Shown here: piece by piece, positions 10,495-20,092 of the stretch
Layout of the letters: the number at the start of each line of letters is the position of its first letter
Position numbering within the stretch: position 1 is the first letter of the stretch
Source: Candidatus Coprenecus stercorigallinarum
Lineage (GTDB): Bacteria; Bacteroidota; Bacteroidia; Bacteroidales; UBA932
Assembly (NCBI GenBank): GCA_018711305.1
Contig: DVIL01000082.1
Coordinates: 1-47,172, forward strand
DNA length: 47,172 bases
Direction of reading: 5' to 3'
The notes under the pieces: generated by a model
Database searches by the model: none
Seen by the model: only the letters and a program-made list of their open reading frames with translations
Told to the model about the DNA's origin: nothing
Program-made: the position numbers and the translations under genes

Positions 10495-11121
10495 GTGGAT
10501 ATCATAGTCATCACAGATCCGGATTTTCTGCCAGGCGAGGCGGAAATCATCATGAGACTGCTCGATGAAGGAGCATACCGGGTGCATGTGAGAAAACCGG
10601 CCGCGGATACCCGCAGTACAGCACACCTCATAGAGGAGCTGCCTGCGGGATATCGCAGCCGTTTGTCACTCCACGACCACCACTCCATCGCCACTTGCCT
10701 AGGCATCGGCGGAATACATCTGAACAGCCGGGATCCGCAGCCTCCCGAAAGTTTTTCAGGTCTCATAAGCCGTTCCTGCCATTCTCTGGAAGAAATCAGA
10801 AAATACCGCGATGAATGCAGCTATATGTTTCTCAGTCCCGTATTCGACAGCATATCGAAAGAAGGGTACAGATCGGCCTTTTCCATGGAAGATCTCAGGA
10901 AAAGCGGCATCAGCCTGCATAACGTCTTTGCCCTCGGAGGAATAAGTCCGGACAATGCGGCTCTGGCTGCCTCCACCGGCTTCGGAGGAGTGGCTGTCTT
11001 AGGTTGGCTCTGGCAACAGTACCGCCACGATCATGACGCCGACGCGTTGTTGGAGAGATTCCGCTGCCTGTTCTTCCTCCAAAGCTGCCAGGAATTGAAC
11101 AGGTTCTGCCAGATGGCATAG
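10495..11121 (+). CDS. ThiE/TenI-like thiamine phosphate synthase paralogue
   Basis: This 208-residue TIM-barrel protein is a second ThiE/TenI family member: HVRKP, LSLHDHHSIATCLGIGGIHL, MFLSPVFDSISKEGY, FALGGI and GFGGVAVLGWLW correspond to ThiE/TenI blocks. Several phosphate-binding residues of true ThiE are changed (for example HLNSRDP in place of HLGxxD). It may therefore act on another thiazole form, for example as a TenI-type thiazole tautomerase, although Thi4 chemistry should not need that; the role is uncertain. It starts with GTG 3 nt after thi4. Its last 91 nt overlap the 3' end of the BASS gene on the other strand. Confidence 0.8.
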   Translation: MDIIVITDPDFLPGEAEIIMRLLDEGAYRVHVRKPAADTRSTAHLIEELPAGYRSRLSLHDHHSIATCLGIGGIHLNSRDPQPPESFSGLISRSCHSLEEIRKYRDECSYMFLSPVFDSISKEGYRSAFSMEDLRKSGISLHNVFALGGISPDNAALAASTGFGGVAVLGWLWQQYRHDHDADALLERFRCLFFLQSCQELNRFCQMA

Positions 11122-12008
11122 GTACCGGGTGCAAGCGAGGAAATGGGGGTGAGATAGGTATAGGCCATCCAGATAGCAAACACCGTATTCTTCTGTCCAA
11201 GGGCCTGGCCGGCGGTGATGACATCTCCATAACAGCGTCCGGTACGCTTGCCGAACCAGTACTGCACGATACAGCTGAGCAGGGCAGCACCGGCTATCAT
11301 CCACAACACCAGTGCGGTAGCCGTACTGTTGTGCAGGGAGCGCACAGTCTGTCCTATAGCCAGGGCAAGAGCGCCTGCCCACAGGTAAAACGCGACTCCG
11401 GCCTTCGCCTTGAAGAAATCATGGGCCCGGGGCCAAAGGTACTTGAGCAGTACTGCCAGCAGGAACGGGCATATCAGCAGCGGGAATACTTTAGAAAGTA
11501 TCTTGAGAAAAGCGACGAAGAATCCGGAACCGTCGTGGATCTCCACCAAAGGAAAGACGACAGGCGCGAAGACGGCCGCAAGAATATTGGACATCAGATT
11601 GTACACAGTGATACGGGCCGCACTGCCCCCGAGTTTGTCAGTAACCACCGCCGCTGCAGTGGCGGTAGGACAGATGAGGCAGACCATCGCACCCTCGAAT
11701 ATCTCACGGTAAGCCTCATTCATGGGGACATATCTCAGAACAGCCGCTATCGCCAGCGCAGACAGACACTGGAAAGCCAGCACTATCCAGTGCCACCGCA
11801 TCACGCGCAGATCCTTCAGCTCTATCTTGCAGAACGTCAGAAACAGCTGGATGAATATCAATGAAGGCGTAAGAATCTGCACTGCCGTCCACACCGCAGG
11901 CTTCAGCGGAGCAAGCGGTCCGATACCGTGGAACAGGAAGTAGCCCCCTGCACCCGCCGCCATGGCGATGGGCAGGGTCCAGTCCTTGAATATCTGCTTC
12001 AATGTCAT
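11031..12008 (-). CDS. BASS-family (bile acid:sodium symporter-like) transporter, possible thiamine-related importer
   Basis: This 325-residue protein is very hydrophobic, with about nine or ten membrane segments, and has the look of the bile-acid:sodium symporter (SBF/BASS) fold: an inner-membrane carrier with the conserved helical block CLICPTATAAAVVTDKLGGS and the late TAGQALGQKNTVFAIW, which resemble the two crossover regions of BASS carriers. Its ATG overlaps the thiN stop as ATGA, so the two genes are translationally coupled. That coupling, and the thiamine operon converging on it, suggests uptake of thiamine or a pyrimidine/thiazole precursor. This is inference; BASS proteins move many organic anions. 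No TPP riboswitch was seen on this strand. Confidence 0.8.
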   Translation of the reverse strand: MTLKQIFKDWTLPIAMAAGAGGYFLFHGIGPLAPLKPAVWTAVQILTPSLIFIQLFLTFCKIELKDLRVMRWHWIVLAFQCLSALAIAAVLRYVPMNEAYREIFEGAMVCLICPTATAAAVVTDKLGGSAARITVYNLMSNILAAVFAPVVFPLVEIHDGSGFFVAFLKILSKVFPLLICPFLLAVLLKYLWPRAHDFFKAKAGVAFYLWAGALALAIGQTVRSLHNSTATALVLWMIAGAALLSCIVQYWFGKRTGRCYGDVITAGQALGQKNTVFAIWMAYTYLTPISSLAPGTYAIWQNLFNSWQLWRKNRQRNLSNNASAS

Positions 12009-12715
12009 TTTATTTCCTGCACATTAAGAGAACGGCCATGCCACCCCGAAAGATAAAGCAGGACCTTGGACGGACGGCTCATGCGAAGTTCCACCCTGCC
12101 CCCCGACGCACGGTTCAGTGCCGCCTTCCACCACATGTCGAAGCGGACGCGATCCGTCGGATACTGCAGACCGGTACTGACAATGTTCAGTTCCTGGTCA
12201 AAGGCAAAAATAGACAGGGACTGTCCCTCCGGCAGCTCAAAAGTGCATGATCCGAGCACCGGTACGAATACTCCGTAATCAGTCACCAGTTCCAGACCGG
12301 CCCTGACCCCGTTACGGTCAAGATATTCGGCAAAATCAGCCAACAGGGAGATATTGCCCAAGGTATGGTCCTCGCGCTTGCCGGTGGCTCCGAAAACGGT
12401 TATGGAAAACTCCGGCAACGAGCGGCCTTCCTGCCCTATTCTGAGCATCGAGCAGATACAGCGGAAAGCCTTGGAAAGGTCATTGCTCTCCTGCTCGCTG
12501 ACCTGGAAAAGCCGGTCGGAAAGATCTTCCATCACTCCTTCGGGCAATGAATCCATATCCCCGACCACGAACTCGGGTCTGCGGAAACGCATGAACTGTG
12601 ACGCCGCCCCATCGCAGCAGACCACTACGTCGCACGAGAGCAGACGGTCACGTACCTCCTGACTGCCCGGGAAATCCCCGTCGCAGAGTATTCCATAGGA
12701 CACGGCAGGTCTCAT
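12005..12715 (-). CDS. thiN: thiamine diphosphokinase
   Basis: This enzyme turns thiamine into thiamine diphosphate with ATP. The 236-residue protein shows the family blocks CDGAA, FVVGDMDSLPE, QESNDLSKAF and FGATGKREDHTLGNISLL, which form the nucleotide- and metal-binding catalytic domain, and a C-terminal beta domain (ELPEGQSLSIFAF, SGGRVELRM) for thiamine binding. Its ATG overlaps the stop of the lptF-fmt gene (ATGA at 12712-12715) and its own stop overlaps the BASS transporter start in the same way, so the three genes are translated as a unit. Confidence 0.94.
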   Translation of the reverse strand: MRPAVSYGILCDGDFPGSQEVRDRLLSCDVVVCCDGAASQFMRFRRPEFVVGDMDSLPEGVMEDLSDRLFQVSEQESNDLSKAFRCICSMLRIGQEGRSLPEFSITVFGATGKREDHTLGNISLLADFAEYLDRNGVRAGLELVTDYGVFVPVLGSCTFELPEGQSLSIFAFDQELNIVSTGLQYPTDRVRFDMWWKAALNRASGGRVELRMSRPSKVLLYLSGWHGRSLNVQEIK

Positions 12716-15162
12716 TGCTGCACGCCCCTCCAGCCGGCGAGAAAACTCTGCACGGGCATACGCTTCCTGGCAGGTGCCTGCAGCTCCAGAATACTGAGCA
12801 GCCCGGATCCGCAGCGTACGAGAATATGCGAGCGGTGATCGGTCCAGGCCGTTCCGGGACGCGAGGAAAGGAAATCTTCCGAAGCCCCAGAACCGGCCGC
12901 ATCCGCATCAGAAAGGACCGTCGTGGAATATATTTTCAGCTCTATCTCCTGTCCGTCGAGAAGCAGACTGCCATGAGCCCCCGGGCGCGGTGAAAGGCCC
13001 CGGACAAGATTGTGCAGGGAGACCGCATCCCGGCCCCATTCCATCAGACCGGTCTCGCGGCTCAGCTTGGGGGCACTCATCTGCAGCGGTGTCAGACCGT
13101 CCGTATTCTGCGGATGCGGCACGGCGGTGCCGTCTGCCAGAGCGTCCACTGTCTTGAGTACCAGATCAGAGCCGACTTTCTTCAGCCTGTCGTACAGACT
13201 GCCGAAGTCCTCCTCCGGCCCGATAGCCACCTGCTCCTGAAAGATTATTGAACCGGTATCCATATGCTCGTCGAGAAGGAATGTCGTGACCCCCGTACTG
13301 GTCTCACCGTTGATTACCGCCCAGTTGATGGGAGCGGCCCCGCGGTAGGCAGGCAGAAGCGAAGCATGCAGGTTGAATGTACCCATGTGAGGCATGGTCC
13401 ATACCTCGCGCGGGAGCATCCGGAAAGCCACTACGACAAACATGTCCGCATTCCACTCCGAAAGTGCCTGAAGGAAAGCGGGATCTTTGAGAGATTCCGG
13501 TTGCAGCAGCGGAAGGTCCTGGGACACTGCATAATCCTTGACAGGAGAAGTACCTGTCTTCTGTCCCCTCCCTATCTTTTTGTCAGGGACGGTAACTACG
13601 CCGGCGACCCTGTATCCGCCCTCCACGAGAGCCCTGAGAGAATCCACTGCAAACTCAGGGGTTCCCATGAACACTATGGCAGGCTTGCCCACCCGGCTCA
13701 GGAAGCCGTCGGTACTGCCGGTAATATTGTTTTTTTTCATTGACAGTTTTGCAAAAAATTTCTTTATCGGTATCAGATATGTTTCCAGATTGAACATCGA
13801 CGAATCCTTTGTGGATTTCCACGTCAGGAACACGCCTATAGGCAACAGCACTATCGTGGAGATAAAAGCGCCGAGCTCGGGGGAGATCACTCCGTCCCTC
13901 GCCAGTTTCTTGCCGGATATATCCACCACCCAATAGAGGACGAAAAAGAGTGCCGAGACAATGACAGGAGTTCCCAGTCCGCCTTTCCGGATAATGGCGC
14001 CGAGAGGGGCTCCGATGAAAAAGAATATGAAGCAGGCAAACGACAGCGTGAATTTTCTCAACGACTCCAGGTCTATCCTGCGCAGGAAGAAAGTAAACTG
14101 CAGTGCCTCCCTGTCATAGCTCTGCATGGTCTGTATCGCCTTCTGCACTCCTTTCAGGGACTGCTGCACCGCATCCAGTTCGGCTGCTGCAGTGGCCCAT
14201 ACGAGAGTGTCTATCGGGAAATTGTCCCGGTAGCCCTTGTTTAGGGAGGTGTCCAGCTGACGCGGGTTGCCGAGGGAGATGTTGTAGACTATCTTCTTCC
14301 GCTGCTCGTCCACTGTCTTCAGGTGGAGGGCACCGATAGAGTCCCTGTCATGGTGCAGCTGCTCCAGGTTCCTGGCCATGATATCATTGCCATAACGGGT
14401 CTCCTCCGATTTCTGGAAAGCGTAGTTTTCCAACGGTATCACCACTTCCTGCATATCGAAGTCCACCTGCTGGAGCTGGTACACCGTGTCCCGGTAATTT
14501 CTGGTATTGTCCTCCTCATAGGATACTCCGTGATAGAGGGTGAATACCAGAGCCTGCTTGTCGGGAGTGGAACGTATCATTCCGGAATCGGCTACGGCAA
14601 GAGAGATATTGCCCTTGTTCTTGGTGTGGTTGTAGACCATGACATTGTACATCATGTCAGTCTCCTTGTTGCGGGAGTCCACCCGGAGGGAATATCCGTC
14701 TATACCGTTGTAGAATGTTCCGGTCGGTATCTTTATCTCGTCCTTCGTACGGGCTATGTCATACTGGAGAGTATATATCTTGTTGTATGCCAAAGGGATG
14801 AGATTGTTCGACACAAAAAACGCAGCTACACTGATGCCGAATGCCACAAAAATAAGCGGCAGGAATATCCTCTGCAGGGAGATGCCGGCAGCCTTCATGG
14901 CCAGCAGCTCGTTGTTCTCGCCCAGGTTGCCGAAGGTCATGATAGAGGCCAGCAGCGTGGCGAGAGGCATGGACAGCGGCAGGATAGTAGCCGAACCCCA
15001 TGCCAGGAATTCCATGATAACCCAGAAACTGAGCCCCTTGCCCACCAGTTCGTCTATGTAAAGCCACAGGAACTGCATCACCAGTATGAATACCGTGATG
15101 AAGAACGTCATTACGAACGGGCCGAGAAACGACTTGAGTATGAAGAGGTCCAGTTTCTTCAT
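12712..15162 (-). CDS. LptF/LptG-family permease fused in frame to methionyl-tRNA formyltransferase
   Basis: This one 816-codon frame holds two normally separate proteins. Residues 1 to about 470 are a LptF/YjgP-type permease of the lipopolysaccharide export ABC transporter: three N-terminal membrane segments, a periplasmic beta-jellyroll, and three C-terminal membrane segments ending near LPIGVFLTWKST. From about residue 495 to the end is a complete Fmt, which formylates Met-tRNA for initiation: FMGTPEFAVDSL, NLHASLLPAYRGAAPINW with catalytic Asn and His, and LDEHMDTGSI with the catalytic Asp. No stop separates them. An internal ATG at 13740 and GTG at 13692 could start Fmt alone. If one T were missing from a T6 run (13753-13758), lptF would stop in a TGA overlapping the ATG at 13740, the same ATGA layout as the next two junctions. 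Topology would allow a cytoplasmic Fmt tail. Whether the fusion is real, strain-specific or a sequencing slip cannot be told here. Confidence 0.85.
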   Translation of the reverse strand: MKKLDLFILKSFLGPFVMTFFITVFILVMQFLWLYIDELVGKGLSFWVIMEFLAWGSATILPLSMPLATLLASIMTFGNLGENNELLAMKAAGISLQRIFLPLIFVAFGISVAAFFVSNNLIPLAYNKIYTLQYDIARTKDEIKIPTGTFYNGIDGYSLRVDSRNKETDMMYNVMVYNHTKNKGNISLAVADSGMIRSTPDKQALVFTLYHGVSYEEDNTRNYRDTVYQLQQVDFDMQEVVIPLENYAFQKSEETRYGNDIMARNLEQLHHDRDSIGALHLKTVDEQRKKIVYNISLGNPRQLDTSLNKGYRDNFPIDTLVWATAAAELDAVQQSLKGVQKAIQTMQSYDREALQFTFFLRRIDLESLRKFTLSFACFIFFFIGAPLGAIIRKGGLGTPVIVSALFFVLYWVVDISGKKLARDGVISPELGAFISTIVLLPIGVFLTWKSTKDSSMFNLETYLIPIKKFFAKLSMKKNNITGSTDGFLSRVGKPAIVFMGTPEFAVDSLRALVEGGYRVAGVVTVPDKKIGRGQKTGTSPVKDYAVSQDLPLLQPESLKDPAFLQALSEWNADMFVVVAFRMLPREVWTMPHMGTFNLHASLLPAYRGAAPINWAVINGETSTGVTTFLLDEHMDTGSIIFQEQVAIGPEEDFGSLYDRLKKVGSDLVLKTVDALADGTAVPHPQNTDGLTPLQMSAPKLSRETGLMEWGRDAVSLHNLVRGLSPRPGAHGSLLLDGQEIELKIYSTTVLSDADAAGSGASEDFLSSRPGTAWTDHRSHILVRCGSGLLSILELQAPARKRMPVQSFLAGWRGVQQ

Positions 15163-15172
15163 CCGGGAGTGC

Positions 15173-17800
15173 TTAGCCTATGTTGTTGACAGACTCGATC
15201 ATAGCGGTAAAAGCCGCCATCAGGCCGTCGGGATCCTTGCCTCCTGCTGTCGCAAGGAAAGGCTGGCCTCCGCCACCGCCCTTGATGTGCACTGCCGCAG
15301 CCTTGACATCCTTGCCGGCATGCGCTCCGGCTGCCACCAGATCATCGGTGTACATCATCAGCAGCGACGGCTTGCGTTCGGGTGTCATGATCGCGGCCAC
15401 CATGGCTGCACGGGTATTTTCCTTGCGCAGCTCGAATGCCACTTCCTTTATGATATCGGGAGAATAAACTCCTGTAATACTGAACAGACGTACGCCTGCC
15501 GGTGTAGTCTCTACCTTCTCCGTCAAGGTTTTCTTGAGAGCCGCCGCCCTTTCCCTGGCGACTTCCTCAAGAGAATGGCGGAACGATTCGTTTTCTGCCA
15601 CCAATTTCCTTATGGCGGTGATTATATCGGGAGTATTCTCGAAGAAGGAGCGCACGGACGCTATCTGGTCCTCCACCCCGTCTATGACATCCTCTACATA
15701 ACTGCCTGTGACTGCCTGTATACGGCGTACTCCTGCAGCAACTGCCGACTCGGACACAATTTTCAGCATTCCTATGCGTCCGGTAGATGCAGTATGCGTT
15801 CCGCCGCACAACTCGATCGAGTCCCCGAAACGTACTGCACGGACCCTGTCTCCGTATTTTTCTCCGAAGAGGGCCATGGCACCCATTGCCTTTGCCTCGG
15901 CAATAGGTATGTCGCGGTACTCCTGACGGGGGAAGTCGGAGCGGATCAGACGGTTGACCATCCTTTCCACCTCACGCAGCTTTTCAGGAGAGACTTTCTC
16001 GTAATGCGAAAAGTCGAAGCGGAAATACGAAGGGCATACGTAGGAGCCCTTCTGCTCGATATGGGTTCCGAGCACGGAACGCAGAGCCTGGTGCAGAAGA
16101 TGGGTAGCCGAATGGTTATTGGCCGTCTCCTGACGTTTCTGTCCGTCCACCACGGCATGGAATCCACCTTCGGGCTCAGCCGGGATGCGGTCGGCAATAT
16201 GGATGCTCAGATTGTTCTCCTTGACGGTATTGACGATATTTATCTTCTCTCCTGAAGTGGAAAGTATGTATCCGCAGTCTCCTACCTGACCGCCGCTCTC
16301 GGCATAGAAGGGCGTACGGTCGAACACGAGCTGGTAGACCTCCTTGCCTTTTGTTTTTACTGTACGGTACTTGACTATCTGCACATCGGTCTCAAGCAGG
16401 TCATAACCCACGAAAGAGTGCTCGTCGGTATCGTTGAGGACCACCCAGTCGCCGGCCTCCACGGCTGCCGCATTACGCGCCCTGGCCTTCTGCCTGCCCA
16501 GTTCCACCTCGAATTCCTCCAGATCGATGACATATCCATGCTCACGGGCTATAAGTTCGCTGAGGTCTACAGGGAATCCGTATGTGTCATAGAGGATGAA
16601 TGCATCCTTGCCGGAGATACGCTTTGTTCCGGCATTGCGTTCCATGATAGAGCTGATCAGACCAATGCCCTTTGCAAGAGTACGCAGGAAAGCCTCCTCT
16701 TCCTCACGGATAACGTTCTCGATCAGAGCCTGCTGACGTCCCAGCTCAGGATAGGCGTCACCCATCACGTCGACAAGTACGGGAACGAGCCGGCACAGGA
16801 ACGGTTCTGTCAGTCCGAGGAATGTGTAACCGTAGCGTACGGCCCTGCGCAGGATACGGCGTATGACATAGCCGGCCTTTACATTGGACGGCAGCTGCCC
16901 GTCCGCAATCGAGAAGGAAATGGCCCTTATGTGGTCCGCCACAACCCTCATGGCAACATCCACATCTTCTGACTCTTTTCCGTACACATGCCCGGAGATT
17001 TCACCTATCCTGGCTATGATGTCCTGGAACATGTCCCCGTCGTAATTGCTCTTGTTGCCGTTTACCGCCATGACCAGACGCTCAAAGCCCATACCCGTAT
17101 CCACATGCTTGTGAGGCAACAGTTCGAGAGTACCGTCAGCCTTGCGGTTGTACTGGATAAACACGAGGTTCCAGATCTCTATGACCAGGGGGTCTCCCTG
17201 ATTGACGAGATTGCGGCCGGGTACTGCCCTGCGGTCAGCCTCGTCACGCAGATCTATGTGGATCTCGCTGCAGGGGCCGCACGGGCCGGTATCGCCCATT
17301 TCCCAGAAATTGTCTTTCTTGCAGCCATATAGGATCCTGTCCTCCGGAAGATATTCCTTCCATATCTCCAGAGCCTCCGAGTCCGGTCCCAGTCCGTCCT
17401 CGGCACTACCCCCACATACAGTGGCATACAGCCGCTCCGGGTCAAGTTTATAGACCTGTGTAAGCAGTTCCCAGGCCCAGGCGATGGCCTCTTTCTTGAA
17501 ATAGTCCCCGAAGCTCCAGTTGCCGAGCATCTCGAACATGGTATGATGGTATGAGTCGTGGCCCACCTCTTCGAGGTCATTGTGCTTTCCGCTTACCCTA
17601 AGGCATTTCTGGCTGTCCGCAACCCTCGGATACAGTATGGGAGTATTGCCAAGGAACCAGTCCTTGAACTGGTTCATTCCGGCATTGGTGAACATTAGCG
17701 TGGGATCTCCCTTGACCACCATCGGGGCCGAAGGGACTATCCTGTGACCCTTCGATGCGAAGAAGTCCAGGAACTGTTTTCTTATCTCTTTAGATGTCAT
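15173..17800 (-). CDS. alaS: alanine--tRNA ligase
   Basis: This 875-residue protein is a full-length bacterial class II AlaRS. The N-terminal catalytic domain begins [17 protein letters not shown], with motif 2 region [15 protein letters not shown] and [20 protein letters not shown]. The editing domain carries the zinc site HSATHLLH and later CGGTH, and a C-terminal DHHA1/C-Ala domain ends with [15 protein letters not shown]. It lies 10 nt before the lptF-fmt gene. It has its own -7 box between it and lptG. Confidence 0.97.
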
Positions 17801-17828
17801 ATAATAGCGAACTGATCAGTTGAAACTG

Positions 17829-17836
17829 CAAATATA
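17829..17836 (-). promoter_or_regulatory. -7 box for alaS
   Basis: The reverse strand reads TATATTTG, a perfect TAnnTTTG, 28 nt before the alaS ATG and just past the lptG stop. No matching TTTG -33 was found. Confidence 0.5.
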
Positions 17837-17840
17837 AATA

Positions 17841-18941
17841 TTATTTCGGTGCCAGACGGTAGAGGACCGCGGCAATAACTGCATACAGGATGTTGGGCAG
17901 CCACAGGGCCAGCCAAGGCGGAAGGGTGTCGGTGATAACGAACATCTGGCTGAAACGCAGGAAAAGGATGTAGGAGAAACTCAGCGCGATGCCTATTCCG
18001 AGATTGAGTCCTATGCCGCCCCGGCGTTTCTTGGAGGAAAGCGACACCCCTATCAGTGTAAGGATAAACGCCGAGAAGGGCACCGCAAAACGGGTGTTTT
18101 TCTCTATGAGGGAATATTTCACCATACTGTCACCCCTCATTTTCTGCATGGAGATGAGATCTTCCAGCTCTCTGTAGTTCAGCGTTTCCACGGTGTTTTT
18201 CCGTCTATAGAAGTCATCCAGCTTGAGACTGATGACTGTATCCAGCTCTTCCCCGTATGTGATACGCTGCTGCGAGGTGGAGTAATCCCTGATGGTATAG
18301 TTCTTCAGCCTCCAGCCGCCCGTAGTAGAGTCCCATGCGGCACTCTCTGCCATCAGCTTGGAGACCAGATGACTCTCGCGGATGCTCTCGAGGGTGAACT
18401 TGTATGCCGTATTGTTCCACGTACTGAACGACTCGACATAGACGAATTCGCCCGGAGCTATCTGATAGTGTATGTCACGGTTCGTGTTGTAGAATTTCTG
18501 TCCCTTTATGTACTTTTCCTCGAAGGCGATACGCCTCTCGTTGGCATCCGGTATAACAAACAGGTTGAGACACAAGCTCATGGATGCAATGAACAATGCC
18601 GACAGGAAATACGGGTACATCAGGCGGCTGAAACTGACCCCTCCCGACAGCATGGCTATGATCTCACTGTTGCCGGCCAGCTTCGAGGTGAAGAATATCA
18701 CGGTAATGAACACGAACAGCGGACTGAACATATTGATGAAATACGGGATGAAGTTGAGATAGTAATCGAATACTATGACCTTCAGTGTCGCCTCCTTGTC
18801 CACGAAGTCGTCTATCTTCTCACTGATGTCGAAGATGATGACTATCACGATTATCAGCAGCAGAGCCATGAAGAAAGTCCCTATGAACTTCCTTATGATG
18901 TACCTGTCAAGTAACTTTATTCTGAATGTGCTGAGATCCAT
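17841..18941 (-). CDS. LptG/YjgQ-family permease
   Basis: This is an inner-membrane permease of the LptB2FG transporter that pulls lipopolysaccharide out of the membrane. About 366 residues are arranged as in the family: N-terminal YIIRKFIGTFFMALLLIIVIV, two more membrane segments (LFVFITVIFF, FLSALFIASMSL), a periplasmic beta-jellyroll domain (about 120-260), then three C-terminal membrane segments. The frame opens at 19004, but that start would overlap tgt by 43 nt; the ATG at 18941 (MDLSTFRIKLLDRYI) lies 20 nt after tgt and fits the family start. Next to tgt, a common Bacteroidetes arrangement. It would pair with the LptF half of the downstream fusion gene. Confidence 0.88.
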   Translation of the reverse strand: MDLSTFRIKLLDRYIIRKFIGTFFMALLLIIVIVIIFDISEKIDDFVDKEATLKVIVFDYYLNFIPYFINMFSPLFVFITVIFFTSKLAGNSEIIAMLSGGVSFSRLMYPYFLSALFIASMSLCLNLFVIPDANERRIAFEEKYIKGQKFYNTNRDIHYQIAPGEFVYVESFSTWNNTAYKFTLESIRESHLVSKLMAESAAWDSTTGGWRLKNYTIRDYSTSQQRITYGEELDTVISLKLDDFYRRKNTVETLNYRELEDLISMQKMRGDSMVKYSLIEKNTRFAVPFSAFILTLIGVSLSSKKRRGGIGLNLGIGIALSFSYILFLRFSQMFVITDTLPPWLALWLPNILYAVIAAVLYRLAPK

Positions 18942-18961
18942 CCGTGATATTGCTTCGTCTT

Positions 18962-20092
18962 CTATAACCTGTTCTGTAGTTTCTTTACAGCTGCATTCTT
19001 CCACTGCAGGAAATCGCCTGCCTCGATATGCAGCCTGGCCTGCTTCACGACATCCAGATAGAAAGCCAGATTGTGCTCGCTGGCTATCTGGGCGGCCAGC
19101 ATCTCGCCGGCTATGAAAAGATGCCGCAGGTAGGCTTTGGTGTAGGCAGTGTCAACAAAGGACGTGCCATAGGGGTCAATCGGGGAGAAATCCCTCTCCC
19201 ACTTCTTGTTGCGCATGTTCATCCTCCCCTCCCAGGTGAACAGCATGCCGTTGCGTCCGTTGCGGGTGGGCATCACGCAGTCGAACATGTCTATGCCGCG
19301 GGCAATGCCCTCGAGCAGGTTTTCGGGAGTTCCCACTCCCATCAGGTAGCGCGGTCTGTCTTCAGGAAGTACCGGATGTACCGCCTCTATCATCTCGTAC
19401 ATCACCTCTGTAGGTTCGCCTACGGACAAGCCGCCTATGGCGTAGCCCTCGCAGTCATACGAAGCCACGTCCTCTGCCGCCTCGACCCTCAAGTCCGGAT
19501 AGACGCAGCCCTGGACTATAGGGAAAAATGCCTGGGAATACCCGTAGAGCGGTTCCGTCTCCCTGAAACGCGCAATACCCCTCTTCAGCCACTGCTTTGT
19601 CAGGTCCAAAGACTTGCGAGCATAATTCCTGTCCGCGTCTCCGGGAGTGCACTCATCGAGGGCCATGATGATGTCGGCTCCGATGATGCGTTGCGTATCG
19701 ACATTGTTTTCCGGTGTGAAACTGTGGGCGGAACCGTCTATATGCGAACGGAAAGTACACCCTTCAGGTGTCAGTTTCCTGCTGTCTGCCAGAGAGAAAA
19801 CCTGAAAGCCCCCGCTGTCGGTCAGAATGGGACGGTCCCATCCTGCGAATTTGTGCAGTCCGCCGGCCATACGCAGGGTTTCAAGTCCGGGCCGCAGATA
19901 CAGATGATATGTGTTCCCGAGGATTATCTGTGCCCCTATGTCCGATTTAAGGTCTCTATGATACACTCCTTTAACAGAACCGACGGTACCCACGGGCATA
20001 AAGACCGGTGTCTCTATGATCCCGTGGTCCGTCCGGATCTGTCCTCTGCGTGCATTACACGCAGGGTCTGTCTTGAGAAGCCCGAATCTCAT
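18962..20092 (-). CDS. tgt: queuine/preQ1 tRNA-guanine transglycosylase
   Basis: Tgt swaps guanine 34 of tRNAs with GUN anticodons for preQ1 in queuosine synthesis. The 376-residue TIM barrel has LTDSGGFQVFSL with the general-acid Asp, the GGLSVGE loop and FDCVMPTRNGRNG with the nucleophile Asp. The zinc site is altered: E. coli Tgt has three cysteines after PIDP, whereas here the segment reads PIDPYGTSFVDTAYTKAYL, with Gly, Ser and Asp instead; only the distal His in EHNLAFY remains. The fold may therefore hold without zinc. I think related Bacteroidetes share this but cannot confirm. Its ATG abuts the tdh stop codon. Confidence 0.93.
   Translation of the reverse strand: MRFGLLKTDPACNARRGQIRTDHGIIETPVFMPVGTVGSVKGVYHRDLKSDIGAQIILGNTYHLYLRPGLETLRMAGGLHKFAGWDRPILTDSGGFQVFSLADSRKLTPEGCTFRSHIDGSAHSFTPENNVDTQRIIGADIIMALDECTPGDADRNYARKSLDLTKQWLKRGIARFRETEPLYGYSQAFFPIVQGCVYPDLRVEAAEDVASYDCEGYAIGGLSVGEPTEVMYEMIEAVHPVLPEDRPRYLMGVGTPENLLEGIARGIDMFDCVMPTRNGRNGMLFTWEGRMNMRNKKWERDFSPIDPYGTSFVDTAYTKAYLRHLFIAGEMLAAQIASEHNLAFYLDVVKQARLHIEAGDFLQWKNAAVKKLQNRL

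Follow-up and report, generated by a model that had tools for sequence, protein, structure and literature searches.

A conserved open reading frame joining an LptF-type permease to methionyl-tRNA formyltransferase in Candidatus Coprenecus and its family

Introduction

In contig DVIL01000082.1 of Candidatus Coprenecus stercorigallinarum (assembly GCA_018711305.1), whose 47,172 nucleotides are the window analysed here, one open frame on the minus strand joins an LptF-type permease of lipopolysaccharide (LPS) export to methionyl-tRNA formyltransferase (Fmt). The two halves serve core functions, in the export of LPS and in the opening step of protein synthesis, that have no obvious link, and the locus raises the question of whether a single protein carries both or whether two genes were run together by one stray nucleotide. 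The initial annotation of the window pointed to a run of six T (T6) at the joint and proposed a gain of one nucleotide, a sequencing slip or a slippage switch. The comparison of relatives reported here makes it very likely that the locus is a genuine, conserved lptF-type::fmt fusion, encoding one membrane-tethered polypeptide that is the sole Fmt found, with several changes between the split and the fused state.

Results

One frame holds a complete permease and a complete Fmt

The list of open reading frames and the translation gave a single uninterrupted frame of 816 codons (Table 1). The domains LptF_LptG, Formyl_trans_N and Formyl_trans_C all scored above their Pfam cut-offs, and the two Fmt domains were in order. 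The permease half covered positions 3-353 of the 353 positions of the PF03739 profile (full length), and the Fmt half passed the curated NCBIfam cut-off of TIGR00460 (225 versus 201.5 bits). The frame encodes first an LptF/LptG-type permease and then Fmt, both of them complete, a reading already made in the initial annotation and confirmed by these results.

The hydropathy analysis gave seven windows, two of which overlapped and were merged, so that the hydrophobic segments fit six transmembrane helices; they flank a large domain at residues ~125-370. The tail following the permease was 31-48 residues long with a net charge of +3 to +9 across the 50 fused genes compared below. With six hydrophobic segments, a basic tail and the known topology of LptF, Fmt would be placed on the cytoplasmic side. 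The earlier suggestion that Fmt is tethered to the inner face of the membrane is supported by this predicted topology. The product would be one polypeptide of ~90 kDa, namely an LPS-export permease with six membrane helices and a large periplasmic domain, and the complete Fmt carried on its basic cytoplasmic tail would formylate the initiator Met-tRNA at the inner membrane.

The fused frame is conserved in the genus and in much of the family

The locus was present in 18 of the 19 Candidatus Coprenecus genomes searched, and reading of the sequences showed it to be fused in all 18, including four rows flagged as having stops inside, where the stop proved to be the true end. The nineteenth genome (G005, 81% complete) gave no match to LptF, Fmt or the fusion. 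This gap is likely a missing part of the assembly, as is the one in G029 (L069), whose lptF sits at the edge of a 3.3-kb contig with fmt expected beyond it.

In PMC8035907, Coprenecus is assigned to the family UBA932 by GTDB-Tk; the family searched is therefore probably UBA932. Among the best 150 places, the frame was open across the joint in at least 142 of the 299 family genomes, the source genome included, whereas at eight places (g4 and g13 rows) the two genes were neighbours in one frame, separated by a stop. It should be noted that the tally of 142 includes the four Coprenecus rows with the terminal stop and a few rows ended by the contig, and that part of these open frames was read letter by letter. 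About half of the genomes searched in this gut-associated family are fused, and a search of those tested found no second Fmt.

The loci read by sequence in the family and the outgroup numbered 99, of which 50 were fused and 49 split; they cover the genera named here as fused or split, among 25 genera. Fused rows came from g1, g2 (1/3), g3, g5, g14, g15, g16, g22 and g23 (1/3), and split rows from g2, g4, g6, g7, g9, g10, g11, g13, g17, g18, g21, g23 and g25 as well as from G072 of another family. The flagged rows of g4 and g13 and that of G072 were split, with a stop between the genes. As for the low-scoring rows of g14 and g22, four (G219, G224, G259 and G266) were in pieces on two contigs, two (G204 and G324) were open frames and one (G154) was one piece up to residue 586. 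L069 was excluded because of the contig end, and L032-L049 (15/18 fused, 3/18 split), which are the same contigs as other loci, were excluded from the tree and the counts; for L105, whose LptF is in two pieces, the larger piece was used. The linkers of the fused genes vary in length and sequence, yet they remain in frame.

Outside the family, an uninterrupted fusion was absent from the matches listed in an order-wide scan (393 genomes, E-values up to 1e-130) and in a phylum-wide scan (395 genomes, E-values up to 1e-110; distant fusions would escape it), with at most two candidates scored per genome.

The fused Fmt is the only one found and keeps its active-site residues

A single Formyl_trans_C match was found in 18 of the 19 genus genomes, always inside the fused frame (G005 had none), and the other fused genomes tested had one Fmt match each (20/20). 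The active-site Asn, His and Asp of the Fmt half align to those of E. coli Fmt (1fmt). The equivalents of N597 and H599 were present in 50/50 fused and 49/49 split rows, and that of D635 in 50/50 fused and 48/49 split rows, the remaining row having a gap. At residue 601, the Ser of the motif H-x-S-L-L-P was replaced by Ala in all 16 rows of g22 that were read, while the remaining 34 fused and all 49 split rows had Ser.

The pairwise ratios of nonsynonymous to synonymous substitution (dN/dS) over nine genus pairs were low in both halves: 0.02-0.14 in the LptF part and 0.05-0.14 in Fmt. Two PF03739 matches, the fused one and one other, were found in 16 of the 19 genus genomes, the source genome included; G006 and G007 had three (one a contig-end piece in the former and one under the cut-off in the latter) and G005 had none. 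The permease half, as judged from these sequences, is probably needed too. Meanwhile, the source genome gave two peptide deformylase matches and an initiator-like tRNA-Met with a GGG/CCC anticodon stem and, on our reading, a mismatched 1-72 pair. By these predicted components, the deformylases and the initiator-like tRNA, the formylation cycle is present.

In five of the 50 fused genes, the 30 codons leading up to the Fmt core contained no ATG, GTG or TTG. Of the five genomes concerned, four (G014, G020, G051 and G031) were examined for extra Fmt copies and none was found, so the fused protein, barring cleavage after translation, seems to be their sole source of Fmt. As the fused genomes tested yielded no other Fmt, the formylase most likely does its work on the inner membrane as a tethered enzyme, which suggests that Fmt can work anchored in a membrane.

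Split pairs and trees point to more than one change of state

Small changes of frame in an lptF-fmt pair, with the two genes close-set and in many cases overlapping, would have given rise to the fusion. Of the split rows, 42 have a near ATG; fmt started no more than 30 nt from the lptF stop in 37 of these and overlapped it in 22. In the nearest split genera, g11 and g18 (five loci), fmt starts 7-8 codons ahead of its core, and the lptF frame enters fmt and ends at a TAG lying in the codons of the Ile-Val that is conserved in Fmt; one net insertion or deletion would bring lptF into the fmt frame. The history suggested initially, in which a stop at an ATGA overlap was lost, becomes doubtful, as lptF of g11 and g18 stops at this TAG inside fmt and not at the ATG of codon -20. 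An Fmt ATG in the last 10 codons before the core was found in 42/49 split rows versus 19/50 fused rows.

The trees required four changes of state with both halves, four with the LptF half and six with the Fmt half, and the well-supported branches alone forced three, three and two, respectively. A single clade of all 50 fused rows was rejected (p 2.6e-5), and so was one clade without L086 with both halves (p 0.0023) and with LptF only (p 0.011). At least two changes of state are firm on these comparisons, and three or four are likely. As the trees require four to six, the fusion probably arose more than once.

Some single cases are recorded here. L086 (G115, g23) is fused although its congeners, among which it is nested, are split; its joint is AT-rich and its linker lacks an ATG. 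It is probably a recent and independent fusion, known from one 80%-complete assembly. The tree of Fmt alone places the Fmt of G019 (fused, g2) on a long branch beside split g4 genes, unlike the LptF tree. For the pairs of genus loci L011/L013 and L005/L008, the proportions of synonymous differences were 0.64 and 0.44 in LptF versus 0.23 and 0.15 in Fmt, a pattern that would fit the replacement of one half by interspecies homologous recombination.

Points against the fusion reading

Several points weigh against reading the locus as a genuine, tethered fusion with a repeated history. The permease half scored 146.8 bits against the LptF equivalog TIGR04407, whose cut-off of 230 it did not reach, and for this reason it is named LptF-type and not an LptF equivalog; its LptG equivalog score was poorer still (94 versus a cut-off of 240). 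The AlphaFold2 model of the fusion, made from a 16-sequence alignment, was poor (predicted local distance difference test score of 53.6), and the topology therefore rests on hydropathy and on the known features of E. coli LptF. The dN/dS of the linker, a short stretch, was noisy and ranged from 0.10 to 1.25 over the nine pairs. In 36 of the 50 fused genes, an ATG lies among the 30 codons ahead of the Fmt core, so free Fmt is conceivable in these. The trees were quick ones built with the simple LG+G4 model and gave long-branch warnings; since one clade without L086 stood unrejected in the Fmt-only tree (p 0.275), the number of origins is uncertain, and gain is indistinguishable from loss. Finally, the evidence consists of assemblies, many of them titled metagenome-assembled genomes, and incomplete.

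The joint and the alternatives to a single tethered product

On the minus strand, the T6 run occupies 13758-13753, an internal ATG starts at 13740 and a run of eight A (A8) follows at 13737-13730, where the initial annotation had placed them. It had also noted that with one T fewer the frame would end at the ATGA, and the next stop of the frame one base on (+1) past T6 is indeed the TGA of that ATGA, at -59. For its two ATGA-type junctions downstream, fmt/thiN and thiN/BASS, the coordinates gave overlaps of 4 nt each. These letters hold for the source sequence; genus-wide, T6 occurs near the joint in 12/18 loci, the ATG followed by A at codon -20 in 9/18 and A8 in the source genome alone. With the frame open in all 18 loci, the variable T run, the unique A8 and the ATG in half of the loci argue against a slip, and also against an internal start being required.

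The codons around T6 are nevertheless unusual, and they bear on the possibility that free Fmt is also made from an internal start near 13740, with the AT-rich and weakly folded T6 stretch serving as an initiation region of the Bacteroidetes type. The nine 10-codon windows of the gene with the lowest G+C content at third positions begin at codons 461-469. Over 14 close genomes and 542 usable columns, 27 codons ended in A or T in at least 80% of the genomes, and five of these (458, 462, 468, 469 and 470) fall into one 14-codon stretch, the densest of the gene (0/5000 permutations for this place, 16/500 for any window). TTT makes up 26% of the Phe codons in these genes, while the two Phe codons of T6 were TTT in 13/14 and 12/13 genomes. 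The rarer codon was kept in at least 12 genomes only at 469 and 470 out of 42 Phe columns and only at 468 out of 28 Lys columns. The joint was also AT-rich and weakly folded in fused as in split genes, although this was the best of 17 positions, a biased choice without a matched control. According to PMC6847099, Bacteroidetes genes start without a Shine-Dalgarno sequence, and what tunes initiation is the structure of the mRNA together with certain bases, for instance A at -3.

In spite of these features, the source ATG has T and not A at -3. A scan of synonymous identity left the joint unremarkable (about 41st of 256 four-codon windows), and the 30-codon dip in codon choice was significant in 7/18 genus rows and not in the source gene (p 0.21). 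An association of ATG with this dip (Mann-Whitney p 3.7e-5) was lost over independent pairs (median p 0.625). Half of the genus loci lack the ATG at -20, and in 14 of the 50 fused genes an ATG is absent from all of the last 30 codons. We regard a double output of tethered and free Fmt as rather unlikely overall. An internal start is not general in the family, given the five start-less genes. Because the AT-ending codons over T6 are conserved, however, some free Fmt from an internal start may be made in Coprenecus, and the stretch is a lead for an internal start region or for a relic of one. Of the separate Fmt product foreseen by the initial annotation, the internal-start route thus perhaps stands in Coprenecus, while the slippage route is not supported.

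A fusion that is made and then cut in the linker by a protease, leaving Fmt soluble, would agree with a linker that is short, basic and variable. No conserved site was seen across genera by eye in the linker alignment, and we give this course only a slim chance.

The slippage switch, in which T6 or A8 would act as a transcriptional, translational or replication slip site toggling between fused and separate products, draws on the T run of six in two thirds of the genus loci and on the nine loci in which the frame one base on reaches the TGA of the ATGA. A slippage gene would be recognised by a conserved slippery tract with products that depend on the frame, but here the T run is shorter than six in 6/18 loci while all 18 frames are open; L015, for example, carries TTTTTC in frame. 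No frame-broken T5 or T7 was found among the 18 loci; a consistent T5 with a stop at the ATGA was the sign of an artefact or a strain-specific slip named in the initial annotation. The frame being retained where the letters of T6 change argues against slippage, and the tuning of products by it is not supported. Besides, other fused genera carry different linkers, and six T is short relative to known slip sites. Such a switch is very improbable.

An assembly or sequencing artefact, or an insertion specific to the strain, might be suspected in a source assembly of 102 contigs, but it is refuted by the same open frame in the 18 genus loci and the family genomes counted above, as well as by the fused majority of L032-L049, which come from several isolates and projects. 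Judged by these sequences, the fusion is neither a sequencing slip nor strain-specific, which corrects the expectation that such a frame invites.

Gene neighbourhood

The order of genes on the minus strand is tgt, a second LptF/LptG permease, alaS, the fusion, thiN and a BASS-type transporter. In the tightly spaced genes at 11031-20092, both LPS-export permeases thus lie interspersed with the tRNA and translation genes tgt, alaS and fmt.

Table 1. Features of the fused gene and its neighbours in the window
Feature	Positions	Strand	Remarks
Fused lptF-type permease::fmt gene, 816 aa (P0001)	12712..15162	minus	One open frame; likewise in 18/18 genus loci
LptF/LptG permease domain, residues 8-449	13816..15141	minus	Pfam PF03739, 246.9 bits
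Tail and linker, residues 449-494, basic (9 K/R versus 3 D/E)	13681..13818	minus	
Fmt catalytic domain (Formyl_trans_N), residues 496-670; N597, H599, D635	13153..13677	minus	PF00551
Fmt C-terminal domain (Formyl_trans_C), residues 699-810	12733..13068	minus	PF02911, sole match in source genome
Cluster of conserved AT-ending codons 457-470 with T6 inside; possible internal translation-initiation region	13753..13794	minus	
Internal ATG(A) beginning at 13740, its TGA in another frame	13737..13740	minus	In 9/18 genus loci
Second, stand-alone LptF/LptG permease, putative partner	17841..19004	minus	PF03739, 242.2 bits; longest reading overlaps tgt
alaS, upstream neighbour	15173..17800	minus	PF01411; ends 10 nt before fused gene
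Thiamine pyrophosphokinase (thiN)	12005..12715	minus	PF04263; 4-nt overlap (ATGA) with fused gene
SBF/BASS-type transporter	11031..12008	minus	PF01758; 4-nt overlap with thiN

Discussion

The fusion is a new pairing of two well-known proteins. No report of it was found among the literature matches listed in text searches on the fusion or the organism. It is generally known, and mentioned in PMC3711429, that genes which are neighbours in one genome can occur fused in another; what PMC4378268 reports is a bacterium that lacks Fmt. Annotations naming one half only would miss the function of the other. A further idea is that initiator-tRNA formylation was relocated in this family, several times and independently, to the LPS exporter in the inner membrane because this is advantageous, tying the supply of fMet-tRNA to the synthesis of membrane or envelope, and that in Coprenecus the conserved AT-rich element at the joint determines how much Fmt is tethered and how much is free. 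This is speculative, and we consider it improbable as a whole.

Compared with known systems, the Fmt half shares both domains, the N-x-H motif and the Asp with Fmt of the TIGR00460 type, including the E. coli enzyme (1fmt, 2fmt; E-value of 1.1e-53 to 1fmt). In contrast to free soluble Fmt, however, it sits on the C-terminus of a membrane permease. The permease half shares the whole Pfam domain and six hydrophobic segments with the LptF/LptG permeases of LptB2FG (PF03739; 6mhu, 6mit), with a weak sequence match to solved LptF chains over residues 13-242. As in the LptF/LptG pair, a second gene of this type is present in the source genome, beyond alaS. Unlike these permeases, the domain of the fusion is longer (~440 residues versus 353 model positions) and is followed by the tail and Fmt. 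There is also a likeness to the split lptF-fmt pairs of g4, g9, g10, g11, g13, g17, g18, g21 and g25 in the family, which have the same order and strand and often overlap; they consist of two frames or have a stop between the genes, whereas the fusion is one frame. The fused and split sister genera together form a natural series leading from an overlapping pair to a fusion.

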